Shown here one piece after another: positions 5,882 to 52,171 of a stretch of DNA of 64,000 nt (positions within the stretch are counted from its first letter, which is position 1; every line of letters begins with the position of its first letter). Under the pieces are notes generated by a model, which saw only the letters and a list, made by a program, of their open reading frames with translations, did not search any database and was not told the DNA's origin. This DNA comes from an uncultured Naasia sp. (GTDB lineage: Bacteria > Actinomycetota > Actinomycetes > Actinomycetales > Microbacteriaceae): NCBI GenBank assembly GCA_913778905.1, contig CAJYYA010000011.1, positions 1-64,000 on the forward strand, read 5' to 3'. Made by a program: the position numbers and the translations under genes.

Positions 5882-5947
5882 CCTTCATTTCGTTCCGCTC
5901 GATGGGCGCGGCCGGGCAGCCGCTCGTTGAGCGCAGCGAAATGAAGG
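5882..5947. repeat. dispersed palindromic repeat, family 1, copy 1
   Basis: Arms 5882-5900 (CCTTCATTTCGTTCCGCTC) and 5929-5947 pair at 17 of 19 positions around a 28-bp GC-rich loop. The same sequence family recurs at 23367-23431. It lies between the converging lysE and nei genes, where it could act as a two-way terminator or as a REP-like element. Confidence 0.75.
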
Positions 5948-12060: not shown

Positions 12061-12609
12061 ATGAGCTTCGTCGGCACGGGCACGCCCGATCCCAATCCCG
12101 GATGGCTGAGCGAAGAGGAGCTGAGCGACATCCGTCGTCGCCTTCCTCTGCTCTACGTCGAGGCGGTCCCCGTGCGGGTCGACGGGATGGGTCAGGTCAC
12201 CGAGGTCGGCGTACTGCTGCGCGTGGGCGCATCGGGCAGCATCACGCGCACCGTCGTCTCGGGTCGCGTCATGTACGGCGAGACCATTCGCGATGCCCTG
12301 TTCCGCCACCTGGAGAAGGACCTGGGGCCGATGGCCTTCCCGCAGCTGCCGATGAGCCCGGCACCCTTCTCGGTGACCGAGTACTTCCCGACCCCCAGCA
12401 TCACCGCCTTCACCGACGAGCGCCAGCACGCCGTGGCTCTCGCTTACGTGGTGCCGGTGACCGGCACGTGTGATCCTCGCCAGGACGCGCTCGAGCTGAC
12501 CTGGATGTCGCCCGCCGAGGCTGCGAGTCCCGGTGTCAGCGCTGAGATGGAGGGTGGCCGCGGTGCTCTGCTGCGAGCGGCCCTCGCCTCCGTCGGCCGC
12601 CTGCCCTGA
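12061..12609 (+). CDS. DUF4916 / Nudix-like protein with degenerate Nudix box
   Basis: A 182-residue protein with a Nudix-fold pattern. The box region (about residues 69-90) reads GRVMYGETIRDALFRHLEKD and then LG: the leading G-X5-E is kept, but the REUXEE core is RHLEKD, so metal-binding glutamates are partly replaced. Such DUF4916 proteins are common in Microbacteriaceae and their activity is unknown; a non-canonical or non-catalytic role is possible. The ATG follows a CAGAAT hexamer by 6 bp, a spacing compatible with a leaderless transcript. It converges on the DEAD-box helicase gene, with a dispersed repeat in between. Confidence 0.75.
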   Translation: MSFVGTGTPDPNPGWLSEEELSDIRRRLPLLYVEAVPVRVDGMGQVTEVGVLLRVGASGSITRTVVSGRVMYGETIRDALFRHLEKDLGPMAFPQLPMSPAPFSVTEYFPTPSITAFTDERQHAVALAYVVPVTGTCDPRQDALELTWMSPAEAASPGVSAEMEGGRGALLRAALASVGRLP

Positions 12610-12674
12610 CCTGCCGCCTGCGCCGGCCGGCTCCGGCTCTGACGCATCGCGGCTGCTCTGACGGAGCCCTGCTC

Positions 12675-12823
12675 TTAACGAATGCAGGAGTTGCGAGCGA
12701 AATGCAGGATCCAGCAGCCCGCGTCATGACGTGATGCCCGGAATGCCGGGCTTCGTCCGACGCTGATCCTGCATTCGATCGCTCAAATCCTGCATTCGTT
12801 TTTCCGACTCCTGCATATGTTCA
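12675..12823. repeat. TGCAGGA-module palindromic element, copy A
   Basis: An intergenic element between converging genes. The left arm carries ATGCAGGA at 12682 and 12702 (20-bp step); the right arm carries the inverse TCCTGCAT at 12767, 12788 and 12809 (exact 21-bp steps). Terminal arms 12675-12690 and 12808-12823 pair at 13 of 16 positions. Related copies are at 16565-16695 and 33657-33804, and a variant at 24641-24728. The middle holds another small hairpin (GCCCGGAATGCCGGGC, 12736-12751). Confidence 0.85.
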
Positions 12824-12846
12824 GTCAGCGGGGCCGCGGAACGTGA

Positions 12847-12879
12847 GAGGCCCCGCCGGATCGGATCCGGCGGGGCCTC
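12847..12879. terminator. strong hairpin terminator downstream of the DEAD-box helicase gene
   Basis: A 13-bp perfect stem (GAGGCCCCGCCGG with its complement) closes a 7-nt loop. It sits 19 bp beyond the helicase stop codon (minus strand) and could also stop plus-strand transcripts. There is no long T run, as is usual in high-GC actinobacteria. Confidence 0.75.
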
Positions 12880-12897
12880 CCACATGAGTGGGCTGGG

Positions 12898-14547
12898 TCA
12901 GCGACCGCGGCGCTGGCCACCGCCATTGGAGCGGACGACCGATCCCACGGTGAGCTTGGTCGGGGCGCCGCCGCCGCTGGATGCGCGACGCGAACCGGCG
13001 CGGGCCGCAGGAGCGGACGCCGTGCGAGCCGGTGCCTGCTCGCGGCGCTGGGCGGGAGCGCCGGAACGGTCGTTGCGGCCCTCGCCCGAACGCACGCTGT
13101 CGCGTGAGTCGCTGCGACCGGCACCGCCGTTGCCGCGACCGCCGCCGCGACGAGCGCCGCCACGCGAGGACGAGCCCTCGGGGGACTCGCCGCGAGGGGC
13201 GCCGCCGCGCGAGGAGCGCCCGCCATCACGACGGGAGTCGCCGCGCGAGTCGTCGGATCCGCCTGCTCGCGCCGCGCGCTTGCGCTGGGCGTTGGCGCCC
13301 TGGCTGGTGCCCCCGCCGCGCTGCTGCTCGACCTTCGGTGCGGGCTTCACATAAGCAGCCTCCTCGCCGACGAGCGCCAGAACCTCGGGGGACGACGTGG
13401 TCACCTGCACCGGCGTGACCTCGATGGCAGCCTTGCGCAGCAGGGACGCGACGTCCTTGCGCTCGCCGGGCAACGAGATGGTGACGACGTCACCCTCCGA
13501 GCCGGCGCGAGCGGTGCGGCCCGAGCGGTGCAGGTAGGCCTTGTGCTCGGTCGGCGGGTCGACGTGGATGACGAGCTCGATGTCGTCGACGTGCACGCCA
13601 CGGGCCGCCACGTCGGTCGCCACGAGCACGCGGACGCTACCGTCGCTGAACGCGGCGAGGTTGCGGTCGCGCTGCGGCTGCGACAGGTTGCCCTGCAGAT
13701 CGACGGCGGGGATGCCCGCGGCGGTCAGTGCTGCGGCGAGCTTTTTGGCGTGGTGCTTGGTGCGCATGAACAGCACGCGGCGGCCGGTGCCGGACGCGAG
13801 CTTCTGCACGATGGCCTTCTTGGCGTCGGTTCCGCTGACCTCGAACACGTGGTGGGTCATCGCGGCGACGGGGGAGTTGGCCTCGTCGACCGAGTGCATC
13901 CGCGGGTTGTGCAGGAAGCGCGACACGAGCTTGTCCACGCCGTTGTCGAGCGTGGCGGAGAAGAGGAGGCGCTGGCCGTGCTCGGGGGTCGCGGCGAGGA
14001 TGCGCGTGACCGAGGGCAGGAAGCCCAGGTCGGCCATGTGGTCGGCCTCGTCGATCACGGTGATCTCGACGCCGTCGAGGGTGATGAAGCGCTGCTTCAT
14101 CAGGTCCTCGAGGCGGCCCGGGCAGGCCACGACGATGTCGACGCCGGCCTTGAGCGCGGCGACCTGACGGCTCTGGTTGACGCCGCCGAAGATCGTGGTG
14201 GTGACGAGGTTGTACTTGCGGGCCAAGGGCTCGATGACCGCGGCGATCTGGGTGGCCAGCTCGCGGGTCGGGGCCAACACGAGCGCCAGCGGGCGGCCCG
14301 AGCGGCGGGCGCCACCGGCGAGCGAACCGCCGAGGCGGGCGACGAGAGGCAGCGAGAAGGCGAGGGTCTTGCCGGATCCCGTGCGGCCGCGGCCGAGGAC
14401 GTCCTTGCCGGACAGGGTGTCGGGCAGGGTGTCGACCTGGATCGGGAAGGGTGAGGCGATTCCCTGAGAGGTCAGCTCGGCGACCAGGGGAGCGGGGACG
14501 CCGAGGGAGGCGAAAGTGGACGTGGTGGTGCTGTCGGTTGCAGTCAT
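12898..14547 (-). CDS. DEAD-box RNA helicase with basic RG/S-rich tail
   Basis: A 549-residue ATP-dependent RNA helicase. Motifs in order: Q motif (GIASPFPIQVDTLP), motif I (GRGRTGSGKT), PTRELA, motif II (VIDEADHM), motif III (LFSATL), and in the second domain VLVATDVAARGVHV and HRSGRTARAG. After about residue 400 the protein becomes a low-complexity basic tail rich in Arg, Gly and Ser (for example RGGARRGGGRGNGG), a common RNA-binding extension. ATG 14545-14547 gives MTATDSTTTSTFASLG, fitting the family N-terminus. The 5' leader is long (about 215 nt from a TAGGCT hexamer at 14761-14766), as in cold-inducible helicases. Likely acts in ribosome assembly or mRNA turnover. Confidence 0.9.
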   Translation of the reverse strand: MTATDSTTTSTFASLGVPAPLVAELTSQGIASPFPIQVDTLPDTLSGKDVLGRGRTGSGKTLAFSLPLVARLGGSLAGGARRSGRPLALVLAPTRELATQIAAVIEPLARKYNLVTTTIFGGVNQSRQVAALKAGVDIVVACPGRLEDLMKQRFITLDGVEITVIDEADHMADLGFLPSVTRILAATPEHGQRLLFSATLDNGVDKLVSRFLHNPRMHSVDEANSPVAAMTHHVFEVSGTDAKKAIVQKLASGTGRRVLFMRTKHHAKKLAAALTAAGIPAVDLQGNLSQPQRDRNLAAFSDGSVRVLVATDVAARGVHVDDIELVIHVDPPTEHKAYLHRSGRTARAGSEGDVVTISLPGERKDVASLLRKAAIEVTPVQVTTSSPEVLALVGEEAAYVKPAPKVEQQRGGGTSQGANAQRKRAARAGGSDDSRGDSRRDGGRSSRGGAPRGESPEGSSSRGGARRGGGRGNGGAGRSDSRDSVRSGEGRNDRSGAPAQRREQAPARTASAPAARAGSRRASSGGGAPTKLTVGSVVRSNGGGQRRGR

Positions 14548-14858
14548 GCGGGAGAAATGAACTCTCTGGAAAGGCCGCGCGGTGTGGCGGTCCGCGTCGA
14601 TCGCGGATGCCGGGCGGCAGTGAGGCGAGCGCACCGGTCGGTGCAGTCGTTCGCCTTCGGAAGGTGTCGCCCTGAAGGCCCCGAACCGGTGACGGCGAGG
14701 CGGGAAAAGAGGGACGGAATCGTCAGACGCAGCGCAGTCGACGTGACGCGCAGTGGGTCCAGCCTAGCGGACGCCCCCGCCACGGGCCAGGGCGGCCTCC
14801 TCCTCACTTCGACGGGCCCGAGTGCAGTCGGTTCCCGCCAGTCAGCGGATGGGACGGG
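14548..14858 (-). promoter_or_regulatory. long leader and promoter region of the DEAD-box helicase gene
   Basis: This 311-bp gap lies between the DUF1684 stop and the helicase start, both on the minus strand. A TAGGCT -10-like hexamer is present on the minus strand (14761-14766), implying a 5' untranslated leader of about 200 nt. No gene or repeat was recognised here. The leader has no obvious Shine-Dalgarno site next to the ATG; a purine stretch (AGAGAG) lies about 18 nt upstream. Transcription start is inferred, not shown. Confidence 0.4.
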
Positions 14859-16019: not shown

Positions 16020-16538
16020 GTGAGCGAGAACGACCCCCGCGGGCAGTCCCGATACCAGGTCCGATTCGACTTCGGGATAGCCGCGTCGCCCGTCTCCCGC
16101 GGTGCGGACGTCGTGGTGGTCGTCGATCCGCTTCGGCTGACGGATTCGCCTGCGCTGCCCGACGGCTTCGAGGGTCCGGTTCTCGAGGCCACCATGTCGA
16201 ACGCCGTCGCCACCGCCGAGTGGGTGCTCGCGCAGCAGCACGACAAGGGCGATCGGTTCGCGGTCGCGGTCATCGGCCAGGGCGACGAGGGCGGGTTCGC
16301 TGTAGAGGATCTCCTCGTCGCAGGCCGCGTGATCGATGCGCTCGCCGACCGCGGTGTCGACTACGCCTCGCCGGAAGCGGCCGCGGCGGTGGCCGCGGCG
16401 CAGGGGCTCTCCCGCGCGGTGTCGCACATCCTGTCGGCCTCCATCGCGGGCCAGCGCCTCATCGCCGATCACGGTCCGCAGATCATCGAGGACGCCCGGG
16501 CGCGTCAGGAGCGCAGCGACGTCATCCGCCTCGCCTGA
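16020..16538 (+). CDS. ComB-like (2-phosphosulfolactate phosphatase family) protein, short
   Basis: A 172-residue protein resembling the ComB family, which hydrolyses 2-phosphosulfolactate. Visible similarities are GADVVVVVDPLRLTDS near the N-terminus (family: VVVIDVLRATT), AVIGQGDEGGFAVEDLLVAG in the middle and the C-terminal SRAVSHILSASIAGQRL. It is shorter than usual ComB proteins (around 230-250 residues) and appears to lack part of the central region. Coenzyme M synthesis is not expected here, so a different substrate is likely. The GTG start has a -10 hexamer 6 bp upstream. It converges on the DoxX gene. Confidence 0.62.
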   Translation: MSENDPRGQSRYQVRFDFGIAASPVSRGADVVVVVDPLRLTDSPALPDGFEGPVLEATMSNAVATAEWVLAQQHDKGDRFAVAVIGQGDEGGFAVEDLLVAGRVIDALADRGVDYASPEAAAAVAAAQGLSRAVSHILSASIAGQRLIADHGPQIIEDARARQERSDVIRLA

Positions 16539-16564: not shown

Positions 16565-16695
16565 CCTGAACGAATGCAGGAGGTCGATCAACGAATGCAG
16601 GACGTCCGGCGCGAAGTGCAGGGAATCGCCGTGCGTGACCTCCCGATGAGGCGCTCAGTCCTGCATTCGTGAGCGGATTCCTGCATTTGTTCAGG
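16565..16695. repeat. TGCAGGA-module palindromic element, copy B (inverted relative to copy A)
   Basis: The left arm carries ATGCAGGA at 16574 and 16595 and a variant GTGCAGGG at 16616 (21-bp steps); the right arm carries TCCTGCAT at 16659 and 16679 (20-bp step). This is the mirror image of copy A: three modules at 21 bp on one side, two at 20 bp on the other. The ends (16565-16581 and 16679-16695) pair at 16 of 17 positions. It lies between the converging ComB-like and DoxX genes. Confidence 0.85.
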
Positions 16696-16719: not shown

Positions 16720-17157
16720 TCAGGAGGGGAGTTCGGACCCGTCGAGGCGGTGACGGCGCTCGCGCCAGGCCCGCCACGCGCCGGTCGCCCACAGCGCCCA
16801 CACGACGAGCAGGGGCTGGAAGACCAGCCGGCTACCGCGGGCCAGGTCGGTCGTGAGTCCGAATCCGTCGACGCGATCGATGAATTGCGCGATGTTTCCG
16901 GGAAAGACCGCCACGAAGAAGGCCGCCACCGCCCAACCGACCGCGGGGCGGAAGCGGGCGGGAGCGAGGAGCAGGGCGAGGCCGAGCAGGATCTCGACGA
17001 CGCCCGAGGCGAGCACCACGAAGTCGGCGTCGAGCGGCAGCCACGACGGGACCTGCGCGCGGAACTCGACGCGCGCGAACGTCAGATGTCCGATCCCGGC
17101 GAACACGAGCGCCGCGCCCAGGACGAGTCGGCCGAGTGTTCTGAATACGTCGCTCAC
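16720..17157 (-). CDS. DoxX-family membrane protein
   Basis: A 145-residue integral membrane protein with about four hydrophobic segments. The DoxX pattern is visible: LGRLVLGAALVFAGIGHLTF at the N-terminus, FVVLASGVVEILLGLALLLAP in the second segment, AVAAFFVAVFPGNIAQF in the third and LVFQPLLVVWALWATGAW in the fourth. DoxX-like proteins are linked to redox and oxidative-stress membrane complexes in some actinobacteria, but no specific function can be assigned here. Confidence 0.82.
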   Translation of the reverse strand: MSDVFRTLGRLVLGAALVFAGIGHLTFARVEFRAQVPSWLPLDADFVVLASGVVEILLGLALLLAPARFRPAVGWAVAAFFVAVFPGNIAQFIDRVDGFGLTTDLARGSRLVFQPLLVVWALWATGAWRAWRERRHRLDGSELPS

Positions 17158-23366: not shown

Positions 23367-23431
23367 CCCTTCGTTTCGCTCCGCTCAACGGGCGGGTCCG
23401 CCCCGCCCATTGAGCGGAGCGAAATGAAGGG
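23367..23431. repeat. dispersed palindromic repeat, family 1, copy 2
   Basis: Arms 23367-23396 and 23402-23431 are 30 bp each and pair at 28 positions around a 5-bp loop. The outer part (CCCTTCGTTTCGCTCCGCTC) matches copy 1 at 5882-5947. It lies between converging genes, downstream of a separate conventional terminator, so termination is probably not its only purpose. Confidence 0.85.
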
Positions 23432-24577: not shown

Positions 24578-24640
24578 GCCCTCCACGGTCGCACTCGCCC
24601 CTGAGTTTCAGACCCGCGGACCACGGATCCTCAGCCCTCC

Positions 24641-24728
24641 CTGACCGAATGAAGGAGAAACTGCTCTGCTTCGCCCCGGATCGGCATGAATGTGTGAATC
24701 ACCCCCGGTTTCTCCTTCATTTGGTCAG
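24641..24728. repeat. variant palindromic element related to the TGCAGGA family (copy D)
   Basis: CTGACCGAATGAAGGAGAAA (24641-24660) and its inverse at 24709-24728 match at 19 of 20 positions across a 48-bp loop. The ends follow the same plan as the TGCAGGA family (CTGAnC, [GA]AATG, nAGGA) but carry TGAAGGAGAAA instead of TGCAGGA, one module per arm. It lies between two minus-strand genes, not at a convergent junction. Confidence 0.75.
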
Positions 24729-24761
24729 GCGCCGTCATGACTAGGGAGCGGGAGGGGTGGG

Positions 24762-29685: not shown

Positions 29686-33567
<3,882 letters not shown>

Positions 33568-33656: not shown

Positions 33657-33804
33657 GAACAAATGCAGGAGACGGAAAAACAAACGCAGGAGACGGCGGG
33701 GAAGTCCGACTCGAGAAGCCCGATTCTCCGCGGGATAGGGGCGGTCAGTCCTGCAATCGGCGCCGGACATCCTGCATTCGTTTCTCCGGTTCCTGCATTT
33801 GTTC
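33657..33804. repeat. TGCAGGA-module palindromic element, copy C
   Basis: The left arm has ATGCAGGA at 33663 and ACGCAGGA at 33684 (21-bp step); the right arm has TCCTGCAA at 33749 and TCCTGCAT at 33770 and 33791 (21-bp steps). The ends GAACAAATGCAGGA (33657-33670) and its inverse (33791-33804) pair perfectly over 14 bp. It lies after the rpoC terminator, between converging rpoC and the MFS gene. Confidence 0.87.
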
Positions 33805-33827: not shown

Positions 33828-35477
33828 TCAGGAGGCAGGAGCCGGGTCCCTGCGGCGGCTCCGGGTGCCGGCTGCTGCGGGGGCGGATGAGCGGAGGCGG
33901 AGGGTGGCGCCGAGGCCCAGGAGGAGGAAGCCCGCCGCGGTGAAGGCGGAGTAGCGGGTCGCGTCGCTGAACGCCTCGCGGGCGGCGGACGCGACCTCGG
34001 GACTCTGCGCTTCGAGCGCGGGGATGGCCGCGCCCGCGGACTGGACGACCACGTTCACGACCTGGTCGCGTTGGGTCGCGGGAACGCCGTCGGCGTCGAG
34101 CTGTGAGCCGAGTACGGCGCCGGTCGAGGTGAAGAGCACCGTGCCGAGGATCGCGATGCCGAGGGCGGAGCCGATCTGACGGAAGGTGCTCTGAGTGCCG
34201 GATCCCTGGCCACCGAGGTCGGCGGGCACGTCGGCGAGCACGACGCCCGTGAGCTGCGCCGTCGCGAGCCCGACGCCGATGCCGTAGACGAACAGGAACG
34301 GGACGATGGCCCACCACGGGGTCGTGGTGCCGACGACCAGGCCGATGCCGGCGACGCCGACGAGCTCTGCCGCGAGGCCCGCGCGCACGATGGCGACGGG
34401 CGATACCTTCCCGCTCGCCGCGCCCGCTATCCCACTCGCGAAGAAGGAGCCGACCGCGAGGGCGAGCAGCACGAATCCGGTCTGCAGGGCGTCGTAGCCG
34501 AGCACGTTCTGCAACCAGAGCGGGAGCGACAGGATGATGCCGAACTCGCCGAGGGAGACGATGAGCGCCGCGATGTTGCCGTTGCGGAACGAGCCGATCC
34601 TGAACAGGCCGAAGGCGAGCAGCGTCGGCTTGCCCGTCCGTTCGCGTCGAACACCCCGCACAATGAAGGCGATGAGTCCGACGACTGACACGGCGAATGC
34701 GACGGGCACGGGGGAGAGGTCGAACGGCCAGGTCCAGGAGCCGACCGTGAGCGGCTCGTCGACGAGCCACCAGCCGAGGGTGCGCCCCTCGATGAGACCG
34801 AAGACGAGCGTGAGGCTGGTCACCACCGACAGTGCGGCGCCGCCCCAGTCGATCCGACCGACCGCGGCACGTGCGCGGGACGGATCGACGAACAGGAACA
34901 GGCCGACGAGGATGAGGATGCCGAGGGGCGGGTTGATCCCGAACGCCCACCGCCATGAGTAGTAGGTGGTGAGGAATCCGCCGAGGAGAGGGCCGACGGC
35001 CACCATCCCGCCGATCGTCGAGCCCCACACGGCGAAGGCGATGCCGCGCTCGCGGCCCGTGAAGGTCGCGTTGATGAGCGAGAGGGTGGTCGGAAGCACC
35101 ATGGCTCCGCCCACGCCCTGCAGAATGCGCGACGCGATGAGGAGATCCCCGGTGGGAGCGAGTGCTGCCAGGATCGAGGCGATCGAGAAGATCGCGACAC
35201 CGAGCATGAGCACCCGTCGTCGACCGAACCGGTCCGCGAGGGCCCCGAAGACCAGCAGGAACGACGCGAACACGAGCGTGTAGCTCTCCTGGACCCACTG
35301 GACCTCGGACGAGCTGATGCCCAGGTCGTCGACGATCGACGGCACCGCCACGTTGACGATCGTGGAATCGACGATGATGAGCGCGACGGCGAGGCTGATG
35401 GCGAGCAGGCCGAACCAGCGGCGTCGTGATCCGCCGACCTGTTTCGTCTCGGCCCCCGTGACCTGCGACCCGGTCAT
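33828..35477 (-). CDS. MFS drug exporter, DHA2 (EmrB/QacA) type
   Basis: A 549-residue, probably 14-helix major facilitator. Motif A is visible (GALADRFGRRRVLMLG), as are the helix-1 VDSTIVNVAVPSIVDDLG signature of DHA2 exporters, the GVGGAMVLPTTLSLI antiporter-type segment and the WRWAFGINPPLG loop. It probably exports toxic compounds by proton antiport. The ATG at 35475-35477 overlaps the stop of the upstream TspO-like gene (ATGA), so the two are coupled. The operon is divergent from a MarR regulator, which suggests drug- or phenolic-responsive control. Confidence 0.9.
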   Translation of the reverse strand: MTGSQVTGAETKQVGGSRRRWFGLLAISLAVALIIVDSTIVNVAVPSIVDDLGISSSEVQWVQESYTLVFASFLLVFGALADRFGRRRVLMLGVAIFSIASILAALAPTGDLLIASRILQGVGGAMVLPTTLSLINATFTGRERGIAFAVWGSTIGGMVAVGPLLGGFLTTYYSWRWAFGINPPLGILILVGLFLFVDPSRARAAVGRIDWGGAALSVVTSLTLVFGLIEGRTLGWWLVDEPLTVGSWTWPFDLSPVPVAFAVSVVGLIAFIVRGVRRERTGKPTLLAFGLFRIGSFRNGNIAALIVSLGEFGIILSLPLWLQNVLGYDALQTGFVLLALAVGSFFASGIAGAASGKVSPVAIVRAGLAAELVGVAGIGLVVGTTTPWWAIVPFLFVYGIGVGLATAQLTGVVLADVPADLGGQGSGTQSTFRQIGSALGIAILGTVLFTSTGAVLGSQLDADGVPATQRDQVVNVVVQSAGAAIPALEAQSPEVASAAREAFSDATRYSAFTAAGFLLLGLGATLRLRSSAPAAAGTRSRRRDPAPAS

Positions 35478-36298
35478 GCCCGGCCCGATCGAGGTGCGGT
35501 CCACCCGGCGCGAGAGCGTGCCACGACCACGGTGGCGATCACGAGCGCTACTGCGATGAGGGCGGCCACGGCGGTCGGGGTGGAGAAGAGCGGACCGGTG
35601 AGCCGGGCGGCGGCGATCCAGGCGAGTCCCCACGAGGAGGCGAGCGCGGGGGCGAGCCGGCCACGACCCCGCACAGCGGTGAGCGCCGCGATGACCCCTG
35701 CAACGAGCGACAGAGTGACGCCCCACGCCTCAGGGGCGAGGCCGAACCCGGTGAAGCCCGATGCCGTCAGCAGCGCCGCGATGTTGGCGACGGTCGCGAC
35801 GGTCACCCAACCCAGGTAGAGGCCGATGGTGCCATCGGTGATGACGGCGTCCACGCGGCTGGTCGGACGGTGCGCGAGCGCCCGGAAGAATGCCCAGACG
35901 AGGACGGCGAGCAGTGCCGCGATGATGGGCACGCTCAGGGGGAGCGCATCGAACTGGATGCTGAGGATCCACGCCGCATTGAGGACGAGCGAAAGAGCGA
36001 CCGGGTAGCCGAGAGCGCGGTGACGCTCGGCGGATCGCTGCGCGGGCAGCAGCTGCCAGACGGCGTAGGCGATGAGTCCGGTGTAGATGACGCTCCAGAT
36101 GGCGAACGCGGGTCCGCCGGGCGCGACCTGGGTGGAGCTGGCGCTCAGGGCGCCGCCTGCCGCTTCGGCGATGGGAGTGCCACCGGCGGCTCCCGACCCG
36201 ATGAAGGAGCCGGTGAGAGCGATGATCGCGCTCACTGCCACGGTGGCCTGGCGCACCGTGTCGGCTCCGGGGCTCCTGGTCACAGCGAGCGTGGACAT
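35474..36298 (-). CDS. TspO/MBR-like membrane protein
   Basis: A 274-residue hydrophobic protein with about eight membrane segments. The first half resembles tryptophan-rich sensory (TspO/MBR) proteins: GGPAFAIWSVIYTGLIAYAV, LSLVLNAAWILSIQFDALPL and GLYLGWVTVATVANIAALL. It is longer than classic five-helix TspO (about 160 residues), with an added C-terminal membrane region. A GGAGGT site lies 4 nt before the ATG. It is the first gene of a two-gene operon with the MFS exporter and is divergent from marR, so it likely shares the same inducer. Function is inferred only broadly. Confidence 0.72.
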   Translation of the reverse strand: MSTLAVTRSPGADTVRQATVAVSAIIALTGSFIGSGAAGGTPIAEAAGGALSASSTQVAPGGPAFAIWSVIYTGLIAYAVWQLLPAQRSAERHRALGYPVALSLVLNAAWILSIQFDALPLSVPIIAALLAVLVWAFFRALAHRPTSRVDAVITDGTIGLYLGWVTVATVANIAALLTASGFTGFGLAPEAWGVTLSLVAGVIAALTAVRGRGRLAPALASSWGLAWIAAARLTGPLFSTPTAVAALIAVALVIATVVVARSRAGWTAPRSGRA

Positions 36299-41334: not shown

Positions 41335-42563
41335 GCACGTTGACCAAGGCCTATGCCTACAAGGGGCGCGCCATCGGCGGCAAGCTGGTGAAGGGCAAGA
41401 TCGACGCGGCCTCGCAGTCGGCCGCGACCGCGCGCCTGCGCAGCATGAACATCTCGCCCATCGACGTCGCCGAGTTCGTTCCCGGTACGGGGCTCAATAC
41501 CGAGATCACATTCGGGTCGCTGGGCAAGCAGGTCGGCCTCTCCGACCTGGCCGTCATGAGCCGCCAGATGTCGACCATGGCCGCATCCGGTCTGTCGCTG
41601 CTGCGCACGCTGTCGATCCTGTCCGAGCAGACGGAGAACAAGGAGCTCGCGAAGGTCCTCGGCGACGTGCGCGAGAAGGTCGAGCACGGCTCGTCGCTAT
41701 CCGCCGCGATGAAGGCTCACATCGGCACGTTCCCGCCGCTGATGGTGAACCTCATCAAGGCGGGTGAGACGGGCGGATTCCTCGACGAGGCCCTGCTCTC
41801 GGTCGCGAAGAACTACGAGAAGGAGGCGCAACTCCGCGCGACCGTGAAGTCGGCTCTGACCTATCCGGTCGCCGTCCTCATCATGGCCTTCCTCGCGGTC
41901 ATCGGGATGCTGATCTTCATCGTCCCGACGTTCAAGAACATGTTCGAGGGGCTCGGCGGCGAGCTGCCGATCCCGACGCAGATCCTCGTGGTCCTCAGCG
42001 AGAACATGATCTGGATCGGACCGGCTCTGCTGGTGATCGGTATCGCCTCGACCCTCTGGTGGAGGGCCAATCGATACAAGGACGAGGTGCGAGCGGTCGC
42101 CGATCGGCTGAAACTCAAGATCCCGGTCTTCGGCGACCTGCTCAAGAAGGTGGCCATCGCCCGCTTCACCCGCAACTTCGCGACCATGATGAAGGCCGGC
42201 GTGCCGATCCTGCAGTCGCTCGCCATCGTGGGGGAGACCTCCGGCAACTGGGTCATCGAGGATGCTCTGCGCAAGGTGCAGGAGTCGGTCAAGTCCGGCA
42301 AGAGCGTCGCGGGGCCGTTGTCGCAGGAGAAGGTCTTCCCGGCCATGGTCGTGCAGATGATCGCGGTCGGCGAGGACTCCGGATCGCTCGAGATCATGCT
42401 CGAGAAGGTCGCCGACTTCTACGACAACGAGGTGAAGTCGACCACCGAGCAGCTCACCGCGCTCATCGAGCCCATCATGATCGGCGTCATCGGCGCCGTC
42501 ATCGGCGGCATGATCGTCGCGCTCTACCTGCCGATCTTCAACATCTTCCAGTTGGTCAAATAG
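41331..42563 (+). CDS. pilC: type IV pilus inner-membrane platform protein
   Basis: A 410-residue GspF/PilC-family platform protein with two T2SSF domains. The first follows LSDLAVMSRQMSTMAASGLS; the second begins FTRNFATMMKAGVPILQSLA. Three membrane segments are visible: about 185-205 (ALTYPVAVLIMAFLAVIGML), about 220-245 and the C-terminal IEPIMIGVIGAVIGGMIVAL. It couples PilB and PilT to pilus assembly. It starts in an ATGA overlap with pilT. The last eight codons, including the stop, are repeated in tandem just downstream. Confidence 0.94.
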   Translation: MSTLTKAYAYKGRAIGGKLVKGKIDAASQSAATARLRSMNISPIDVAEFVPGTGLNTEITFGSLGKQVGLSDLAVMSRQMSTMAASGLSLLRTLSILSEQTENKELAKVLGDVREKVEHGSSLSAAMKAHIGTFPPLMVNLIKAGETGGFLDEALLSVAKNYEKEAQLRATVKSALTYPVAVLIMAFLAVIGMLIFIVPTFKNMFEGLGGELPIPTQILVVLSENMIWIGPALLVIGIASTLWWRANRYKDEVRAVADRLKLKIPVFGDLLKKVAIARFTRNFATMMKAGVPILQSLAIVGETSGNWVIEDALRKVQESVKSGKSVAGPLSQEKVFPAMVVQMIAVGEDSGSLEIMLEKVADFYDNEVKSTTEQLTALIEPIMIGVIGAVIGGMIVALYLPIFNIFQLVK

Positions 42564-42588
42564 GACATCTTGCAGTTGGTCAAATAGG
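42541..42588 (+). repeat. 24-bp tandem duplication at the pilC stop
   Basis: Units 42541-42564 and 42565-42588 differ at only two or three positions. Each contains CAGTTGGTCAAATAG, so the pilC tail QLVK-stop is present twice in frame. Only the first stop is used. Confidence 0.85.
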
Positions 42589-51823: not shown

Positions 51824-52171
51824 GGGCCTCGATACGCCTGCGGCTACTCGGCCGGTCTCGGTACGGGGCGCTTCGCGGCCCCTACTCGACCTCCGGAATT
51901 CCGGACGTCGAGTAGGCCGCTAGGCCGTATCGAGAGCAGCGCAACGTGACCTTCGGGTTTGGGGCCTCGGTACGCCTTCGGCTACTCGGCCGGTCTCGGT
52001 ACGGGGCGCTTCGCGGTCCCTACTCGACCTCCGGAATTCCGGGCGTCGAGTAGGCCGCTAGGCCGTATCGAGACGGCTCGAGTAGCGAAGCGTATCGAGA
52101 GCAGCGCAGCGCGACCTTCGGGTCGGGCCTCGATACCCCTGCCCTACTCGACCTCCGGAAGGCGGCGGCGT
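51824..52171. repeat. tandem array of nested palindromes, family 3 (about 2.3 units)
   Basis: Unit 1 is 51824-51961 and unit 2 is 51962-52124, which carries a 27-bp internal insertion; a partial third unit runs 52125-52171. Each full unit has CTACTCGAC ... GTCGAGTAG around CCGGAATTCCGG (a near-perfect palindrome of about 34 bp), nested in outer CTCGATACG ... CGTATCGAG arms. The 374-bp gap 51821-52194 between converging genes is almost entirely this array. Confidence 0.88.

Follow-up and report, generated by a model that had tools for sequence, protein, structure and literature searches.

What are the modular palindromes that lie between genes in this stretch of DNA, and what could have spread them? 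The window, that is, the whole 64-kb stretch that was analysed, contains three intergenic elements (A, B and C) built from TGCAGGA units, which a sequence-only reading had described as one shared architecture with two modules on one arm and three inverted modules on the other. The observation of modular palindromic elements was real and was in part confirmed. The window has 32 copies of TGCAGGA where 6.05 would be expected, none of 100 shuffles reached 32, and every module position listed earlier for A, B and C was present in the window. The elements and their neighbours are given below; the names DEAD-box helicase, rpoC and MFS, as well as dapA and SDR further on, are our own reading of the translations.

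12676..12823, + strand: element A, two modules facing three (2+3), with ATGCAGGA at 12682 and 12702 and TCCTGCAT at 12767, 12788 and 12809; between convergent genes 12061-12609 (+) and 12898-14634 (-, DEAD-box helicase)
12737..12750, no strand assigned: central core of element A, CCCGGAATGCCGGG
16569..16691, - strand: element B, 2+2, with ATGCAGGA at 16574 and 16595 and TCCTGCAT at 16659 and 16679, inner step 64; between convergent genes 16020-16538 (+) and 16720-17157 (-)
24640..24729, no strand assigned: element of a second family, 1+1, with AATGAAGGAG and CTCCTTCATT modules and a span of 74 bp (24648-24721)
33657..33804, + strand: element C, 2+3, with ATGCAGGA at 33663, ACGCAGGA at 33684, TCCTGCAA at 33749 and TCCTGCAT at 33770 and 33791; between convergent genes 29686-33567 (+, rpoC) and 33828-35726 (-, MFS transporter)
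33719..33734, no strand assigned: central core of element C, CCCGATTCTCCGCGGG

The two-versus-three architecture held for A and C but not for B. The proposal that B is A inverted failed on its third module, GTGCAGGG at 16616, which has two mismatches and lies inside the inner gap; it was not counted as a module here, and B taken as 2+2 has an inner step similar to that of the other elements. The modules claimed for C were found at their positions, but two of them (ACGCAGGA and TCCTGCAA) are imperfect. The second family is built from TGAAGGA modules in a 1+1 form, with further members in the same genome (L102 and L103, and L101 as 1+2), and the span of its window copy, 74 bp, is also the one most often seen for the TGCAGGA elements of other genera.

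Other repeats were seen in the window as well. Two 112-nt copies at 51824-52073 are 96% alike, with a palindrome around GTCGAGTAGG in each, palindromes with CGTTTCGCTCCGCTCAACG-like arms at 5882-5947 and 23367-23431 belong to another repeat family, and a 24-bp tandem duplication (ACATCTTCCAGTTGGTCAAATAGG) lies at 42541-42588, where a coding region ends.

When the whole source genome (3.22 Mb in 23 contigs) was searched for tandem pairs with the pattern TGCAGGAN{8,20}TGCAGGA, 79 matches were found, and the reversed control gave 1. Although this pattern permits steps of 15-27 bp, 78 of the 79 pairs had the 20-21 bp spacing reported before from the window, with 20 bp in 28 and 21 bp in 50; the sole 24-bp step (C10:128624) falls within a 1.3-kb stretch in which one frame is open throughout. 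When 29 elements were used to build a sequence model, a search with it gave 31 distinct elements at E < 1e-13. The 2+3 plan was found in 29 of the 31, in a scan that presupposed this plan and permitted inner steps of 61-67 bp, and some of the inner modules were degenerate (for example in L041). The inner step was 65 bp in 27 of these elements and 66 bp in 2; the other plans were that of B and an element with one module facing two (C14:94406). An inner step fixed at 64-66 bp is the strongest invariant of the elements, and it was absent from the sequence-only reading. The statement that the sequence between modules is not conserved was correct for most of the inner gap, where positions carried almost no information, but it did not apply to the outer ends, which are conserved as TGAACRA ... 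TYGTTCA, to the arm spacers with their weak consensus, or to a conserved central CCCGGAATcaTGCGGG-like core that was found in either orientation.

Distribution and spacing in other Microbacteriaceae

None of the eight other genomes of the genus that were searched contained full elements, and the forms seen in the congener G006 have one module facing one and another prefix. We compared the site of element A in G006 and G002, the congeners in which the gene ends aligned on both sides. In G006 only ~55 nt were found between the aligned gene ends. In G002 (L152), the site orthologous to 12610-12893 of the window was 176 nt long and held an element with CTCAGCAGG modules, and CTCAGCAGG is the module of G002's own AbiEi-DUF559 gene (L310), a member of the nuclease family described below. 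Thus, element A in its present form is not common to these congeners, and one intergenic site can hold the element of another lineage.

Among 199 genomes of the family, the tandem pair was clearly enriched only in a few, notably the source genome (78 versus 1 in the control), G186 (42 versus 0) and G196 (20 versus 0). The prefix before TGCAGGA varied (GCTGTTG in G186 and CGGGTTG in G196), and the G186 arrays had steps of 18-22 bp and an inner step of 62 or 63 bp in 8 of the 10 arrays fetched. Both the number and the sequence of the modules turn over between species. A pattern scan of genome contigs gave at least 80 loci and added more Microbacteriaceae, with several prefixes; those listed include Rathayibacter sp. 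Leaf185, Homoserinibacter gongjuensis, Cryobacterium sp. BB307 and Microbacteriaceae VKM Ac-2855. We inspected 34 positions from 33 of these loci, which were selected largely by their titles, and took 10 of the positions for chance matches. The pattern scan of viral contigs returned 15 stretches, none of which, by eye, had the plan of this element family. Elements of other appearance were also seen. G196 had ~300-bp copies (L140-L149), 7 of which were aligned and were highly similar, with TGCAGGA steps of 14 and 22 bp; these copies look like a recent amplification. G091 (L146 and L147) had direct-only TGTGCAGGAGAAGACCC arrays with 17-19 bp steps and no inverted arm.

Dispersed elements of the form AATGCAGGAG...CTCCTGCATT were present in 15 of the 199 family genomes, with no match to the reversed control in the genomes listed. 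The pattern used to measure their geometry, AATGCAGGAGN{46,75}CTCCTGCATT, permits spans of 66-95 bp and gave 33 matches in G134, 29 in G037, 21 in G006 and 14 each in G045 and G049. Among the 89 listed of 149 forward matches (12 genomes), 72 had spans of 72-76 bp and 15 had spans of 84-86 bp, none fell at 77-83 bp, and there were outliers at 66 and 90 bp. The 86-bp copies in G037 are alike rather than independent, and those in G049 are diverse. A span of 74 bp was also found in the TGAAGGA element of the window, in L102 and L103, in the TCAAGGA elements that were measured, and in the ATCACGGAG elements at the C6 nuclease gene of the source genome. These span classes suggest helical phasing on duplex DNA.

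A nuclease gene with modules in its flanks

The wider picture, which had been missed earlier, is that other Microbacteriaceae have such elements with other modules, and that these flank a gene for an AbiEi-DUF559 nuclease. In the source genome, a nuclease gene at C17 (~10.7-11.6 kb) lies between two of the genome's own arrays 1.2 kb apart, and its neighbours, read by eye, are dapA and a short-chain dehydrogenase-like (SDR) gene. At this locus no AbiEii toxin gene was seen next to the gene, which lies outside any intron or intein. The product of ~290 aa matched DUF559 at E 1.2e-8, AbiEi_4 weakly and below the Pfam cut-off, and the AbiEi models of PADLOC at 1.4e-6. In an alignment of 20 members of the protein family, DUF559 was found in 18, AbiEi_4 in 12 (at E<=0.01) and the MTES_1575 REase model in 17.

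A profile of the 20 members matched 3hrl (endonuclease-like, 2e-11) and 3r3p (mobile intron protein, 1.9e-5) in the PDB. We also searched with Foldseek a structure model of the L246 protein, predicted from a two-sequence input with a mean pLDDT of 54, in which the middle had low confidence and the last 100 residues were better. The catalytic domain of I-Bth0305I (3r3p) came first (3.6e-4, TM 0.75 by target), followed by 3hrl, and the AbiEi antitoxin 6y8q came fourth (E 0.036). Among 52 intact homologs (6 of 58 had an internal stop and were left out), 40-49 retain each of the residues E186, Q203, D213, E223, D225, H230 and D236, and E186, D213, E223, D225, H230 and D236 are all present in the protein of the source genome. 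Profile, fold and residues all point to a VSR-like catalytic domain with conserved E, D and H residues, and the predicted protein resembles an AbiEi-type winged helix fused to a DUF559/VSR-like (EDxHD-type) endonuclease.

Homologs were present in 14 of 15 chosen genomes, and tblastn located them beside arrays in L246, L209, L200 and G186 (L135). The inverted pairs in the flanks differed by lineage: ACCAAATGCAGGA in G006, CGGAAATGCAGGA in G037, CAGAAATGCAGGA in G134, GACCAAATCAAGGA in G001, CACGGATCCGGA in G005, CGCTCAGCAGG in G002, and others. A second copy of the gene in the source genome (C6) had inverted pairs of CCCAAATCACGGAGA in its flanks. A strict test demands that an identical 10-mer form an inverted pair in the 450 bp on each side of the gene; it was passed by 27 of 88 homolog loci, the C17 gene among them. 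The 88 loci, some of them gene fragments, came in three batches: 30 loci from 40 matches (16 passed), 28 loci from 31 new matches of a class-level search (6 passed) and 30 loci from 40 matches (5 passed). Among control positions, none of the 312 in the window and 2 of the 1468 in contigs passed, and one of these two, L209, is itself an AbiEi-DUF559 gene. The other was a position in L192 (Agromyces sp. Soil535, ~3460, CGGATGCCGC), outside the nuclease family. The window's family accounts for 26 of the 27 passing loci, and outside it 1 of 11 loci passed (L334). The 61 of 88 loci that failed include one-sided and diverged cases, fragments, and some with nothing to be seen in the flanks. The element type is associated with the AbiEi-DUF559 gene family at a minority of loci, far above the control.

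Where a genome has dispersed ATGCAGGAG elements, a gene with this module in its flanks might be expected as well; the third batch, chosen to test this, bore it out only in part. A homolog at E 1e-8 was found in 8 of 9 genomes with such elements and in 4 of 11 without them. Pairs of AATGCAGGA in both flanks were found in two of the nine (G195 and G114), partial AATGCAGGA flanks in G045, G143 and G017, and a lone module beside one gene in G137; G049 and G141 had no AATGCAGGA pairs in the flanks examined, and G066 had no homolog at E 1e-8. For the TGAAGGA family (G000), a nuclease gene with TGAAGGA flanks was looked for in the source genome and not found. In several genomes, gene flanks and dispersed copies had a lineage-specific module in common. 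Over 19 proteins, protein identity was correlated with module similarity (Mantel r 0.31, 11 of 5000 permutations).

The spacing of the gene-flanking pairs was compared between the left and right flanks of the 27 passing loci, using the best-matching pair where a flank has several. The two were equal in 19, a number to which duplicated elements could contribute (the flanks of L312 are nearly identical). They were off by 1 in one case, by 11-12 in three, by 22 in one and by 19 in one, and in two they were unrelated. Equality or a shift of about one turn, as in most of these pairs, is expected under helical phasing on duplex DNA.

From these sequence comparisons we consider it probable that the elements are non-autonomous, REPIN-like units that are bound and spread by an AbiEi-DUF559 nuclease encoded elsewhere in the genome, and the findings suggest that a nuclease and scattered DNA repeats are partnered in a way not described before.

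Alternative explanations

A structured non-coding RNA or a hairpin terminator would agree with the strong folding of single strands of the elements (z -3.8 to -8.5 in the 7 that were folded), but the inverted modules largely account for it. Folded by themselves, the spacers of the source genome gave a mean z of -0.03, with 1 of 28 below -2 (28 of 29 were usable), whereas those of G134 (mean z -0.89, 6 of 19 below -2) and G045 (-0.91, 2 of 10 below -2) folded somewhat better than shuffled sequences. Complementarity within the spacers of these three genomes (28, 19 and 10 spacers) showed no excess over shuffled partners, which reached or exceeded the observed value in 453, 474 and 456 of 500 shuffles; this result holds for the symmetric register, and off-centre hairpins fall outside it. 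The outer arm steps were also unequal (20 versus 21 bp) in 24 of 29 elements, Rfam gave no match in the window at the gathering score, and separate terminator-like hairpins adjoin A and C, in line with the earlier judgement that the elements are something other than simple terminators. A structured RNA was rejected on the missing symmetric covariation and the missing Rfam match, despite the strong folds, and either form of this explanation is very hard to credit. The sequence-only reading had left open a protein-binding array or an RNA. An RNA or single-stranded DNA hairpin is disfavoured since the span classes lie about one helical turn apart and the spacers show no excess pairing in the symmetric register, and a multi-site protein array on duplex DNA is the better supported of the two options. 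Several transposase sites at each end are a feature of IS21, Tn7 and Mu-like transposons, and the elements could in principle be MITEs of an ordinary DDE transposon of this type. Their terminal inverted repeats (TG...CA) and the tandem sites at each end fit such an origin, as do the ~300-bp copies in G196. However, the source genome has one rve-domain protein only, and at 24 rve loci of 5 genomes, which constituted the search for a DDE partner, the modules look incidental; ~63-bp module pairs were seen only at L117 and L129 of G134 and were taken for neighbouring dispersed elements. Target-site duplications were looked for over 800 combinations of offset and length, none of which was convincing: the highest uncorrected z was 3.7, with overlapping combinations at ~3.0-3.6. 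This negative result is weak because the copies look old. We regard a DDE transposon as a very unlikely source. REPINs of the REPIN-RAYT type, in which REP doublets are spread by a Y1 (HUH) transposase, come close in form: here too, dozens of intergenic inverted repeats are dispersed, with conserved ends, a variable spacer of set length and a lineage-specific repeat, and one DNA-processing enzyme gene has the repeats in its flanks (at the 27 of 88 loci). That enzyme is an AbiEi-DUF559 protein and not a Y1 HUH protein. Y1_Tnp (PF01797) was absent from 12 of 12 genomes, with 5 of 14 control genomes positive. Moreover, the elements may have tandem modules at about two helical turns and span classes about one turn apart, and no hairpin covariation in the symmetric register. 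Without the Y1 enzyme, membership in REPIN/RAYT was rejected, and the system was not filed there because the defining enzyme was not found and hairpin covariation was not seen; spread by a Y1 transposase is barely conceivable.

The strongest rival is a domesticated role, in which the elements are host sites that organise the chromosome, insulate convergent genes or serve regulation. A domesticated AbiEi-DUF559 protein would bind these sites, which would no longer move, and the nuclease would perhaps be active only rarely. The modules are kept while the inner gap is nearly uninformative, which looks like selection at each site. Many elements lie at 3' ends or between convergent genes, according to rough heuristic ORF calls, and dapA adjoins the homolog gene at 11 of 61 loci in several genera (one match being partial), as for a vertically inherited host gene. 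On the other hand, the residues of the nuclease motif are conserved, and the modules turn over in number and sequence between species. Since all eight searched congeners are without full elements, the set also appears dispensable, which argues against a host role. We consider host sites possible but unlikely, and return to nuclease-driven spread as the preferred reading.

Proposed spread of the elements and related systems

Spread by the nuclease would involve binding by the AbiEi-like domain, cutting, and copying by cutting and repair, steps that we infer. The AbiEi-like domain would read the module (TGCAGGA plus its lineage-specific prefix), and protomers would sit on the two arms, some six helical turns from each other and on the same face of the duplex, with extra tandem modules adding further protomers. 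The nuclease domains would then cut the DNA in the element or close to it, and copies may reach intergenic sites through repair of this break or through insertion of the element. The two elements that flank the gene may autoregulate it or mark the source locus. If each copy is under selection to be bound, the modules would stay constant while the spacers drift. The earlier interpretation as a whole was partly supported, and the literature found here, like the sequence-only reading, offered no named element with this plan.

Several described systems have parts in common with the one proposed. REP and BIME sequences are inverted intergenic repeats near 3' ends in which the modules are themselves hairpins. 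The present elements share the location and the inversion, but their modules are not hairpins, their arm distances fall into classes spaced by helical turns, and the enzyme is another one. For REPINs, PMC3116915 describes REP doublets, with GI REPIN 16-mers that start 71 bp apart. The EDxHD homing endonuclease I-Bth0305I appears to share the catalytic domain, by the profile match and the top fold match, and differs in that the protein here has an AbiEi-like winged-helix fusion, is encoded outside an intron or intein at the C17 locus, and has flanking palindromic elements with dozens more elsewhere. With the type IV toxin-antitoxin protein AbiEi it would share the N-terminal winged helix, and AbiEi is reported (PMC7319586) to bind inverted repeats and to autoregulate; the predicted C-terminal nuclease and the dapA and SDR-like neighbours, with AbiEii not seen, set the present protein apart. 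MTES_1575 is described in PMC3710099 as a fusion of a Vsr-type REase with HEPN and further domains, in passages that make no mention of repeats. By titles and the beginnings of abstracts, in a literature in which subscription papers are mostly uncovered, no description of these repeats was found, and papers on DUF559 with palindromic elements or homing endonucleases were unrelated. Nothing was found that paired DUF559 with AbiEi or DUF559 with a transposon.

There is perhaps an even chance that the system represents a new class of repeats in Actinobacteria. In such a class, AbiEi-VSR/EDxHD nucleases would each have their own co-evolving palindromic element, spread by cutting and repair and not by a transposase, with a duplex complex of six or seven turns as the recognition unit that tandem modules can extend. 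If nuclease-driven spread is correct, a second, unrelated enzyme family would join the few nucleases that are partnered with populations of tiny palindromic elements, and the REPIN-like plan would have arisen more than once. The fixed inner distance would allow a direct geometric test, and the lineages with different modules and nucleases would form a natural specificity series, with module set against DNA-reading domain. For the AbiEi-DUF559 genes of these bacteria, the partnership suggests a function that can be tested.
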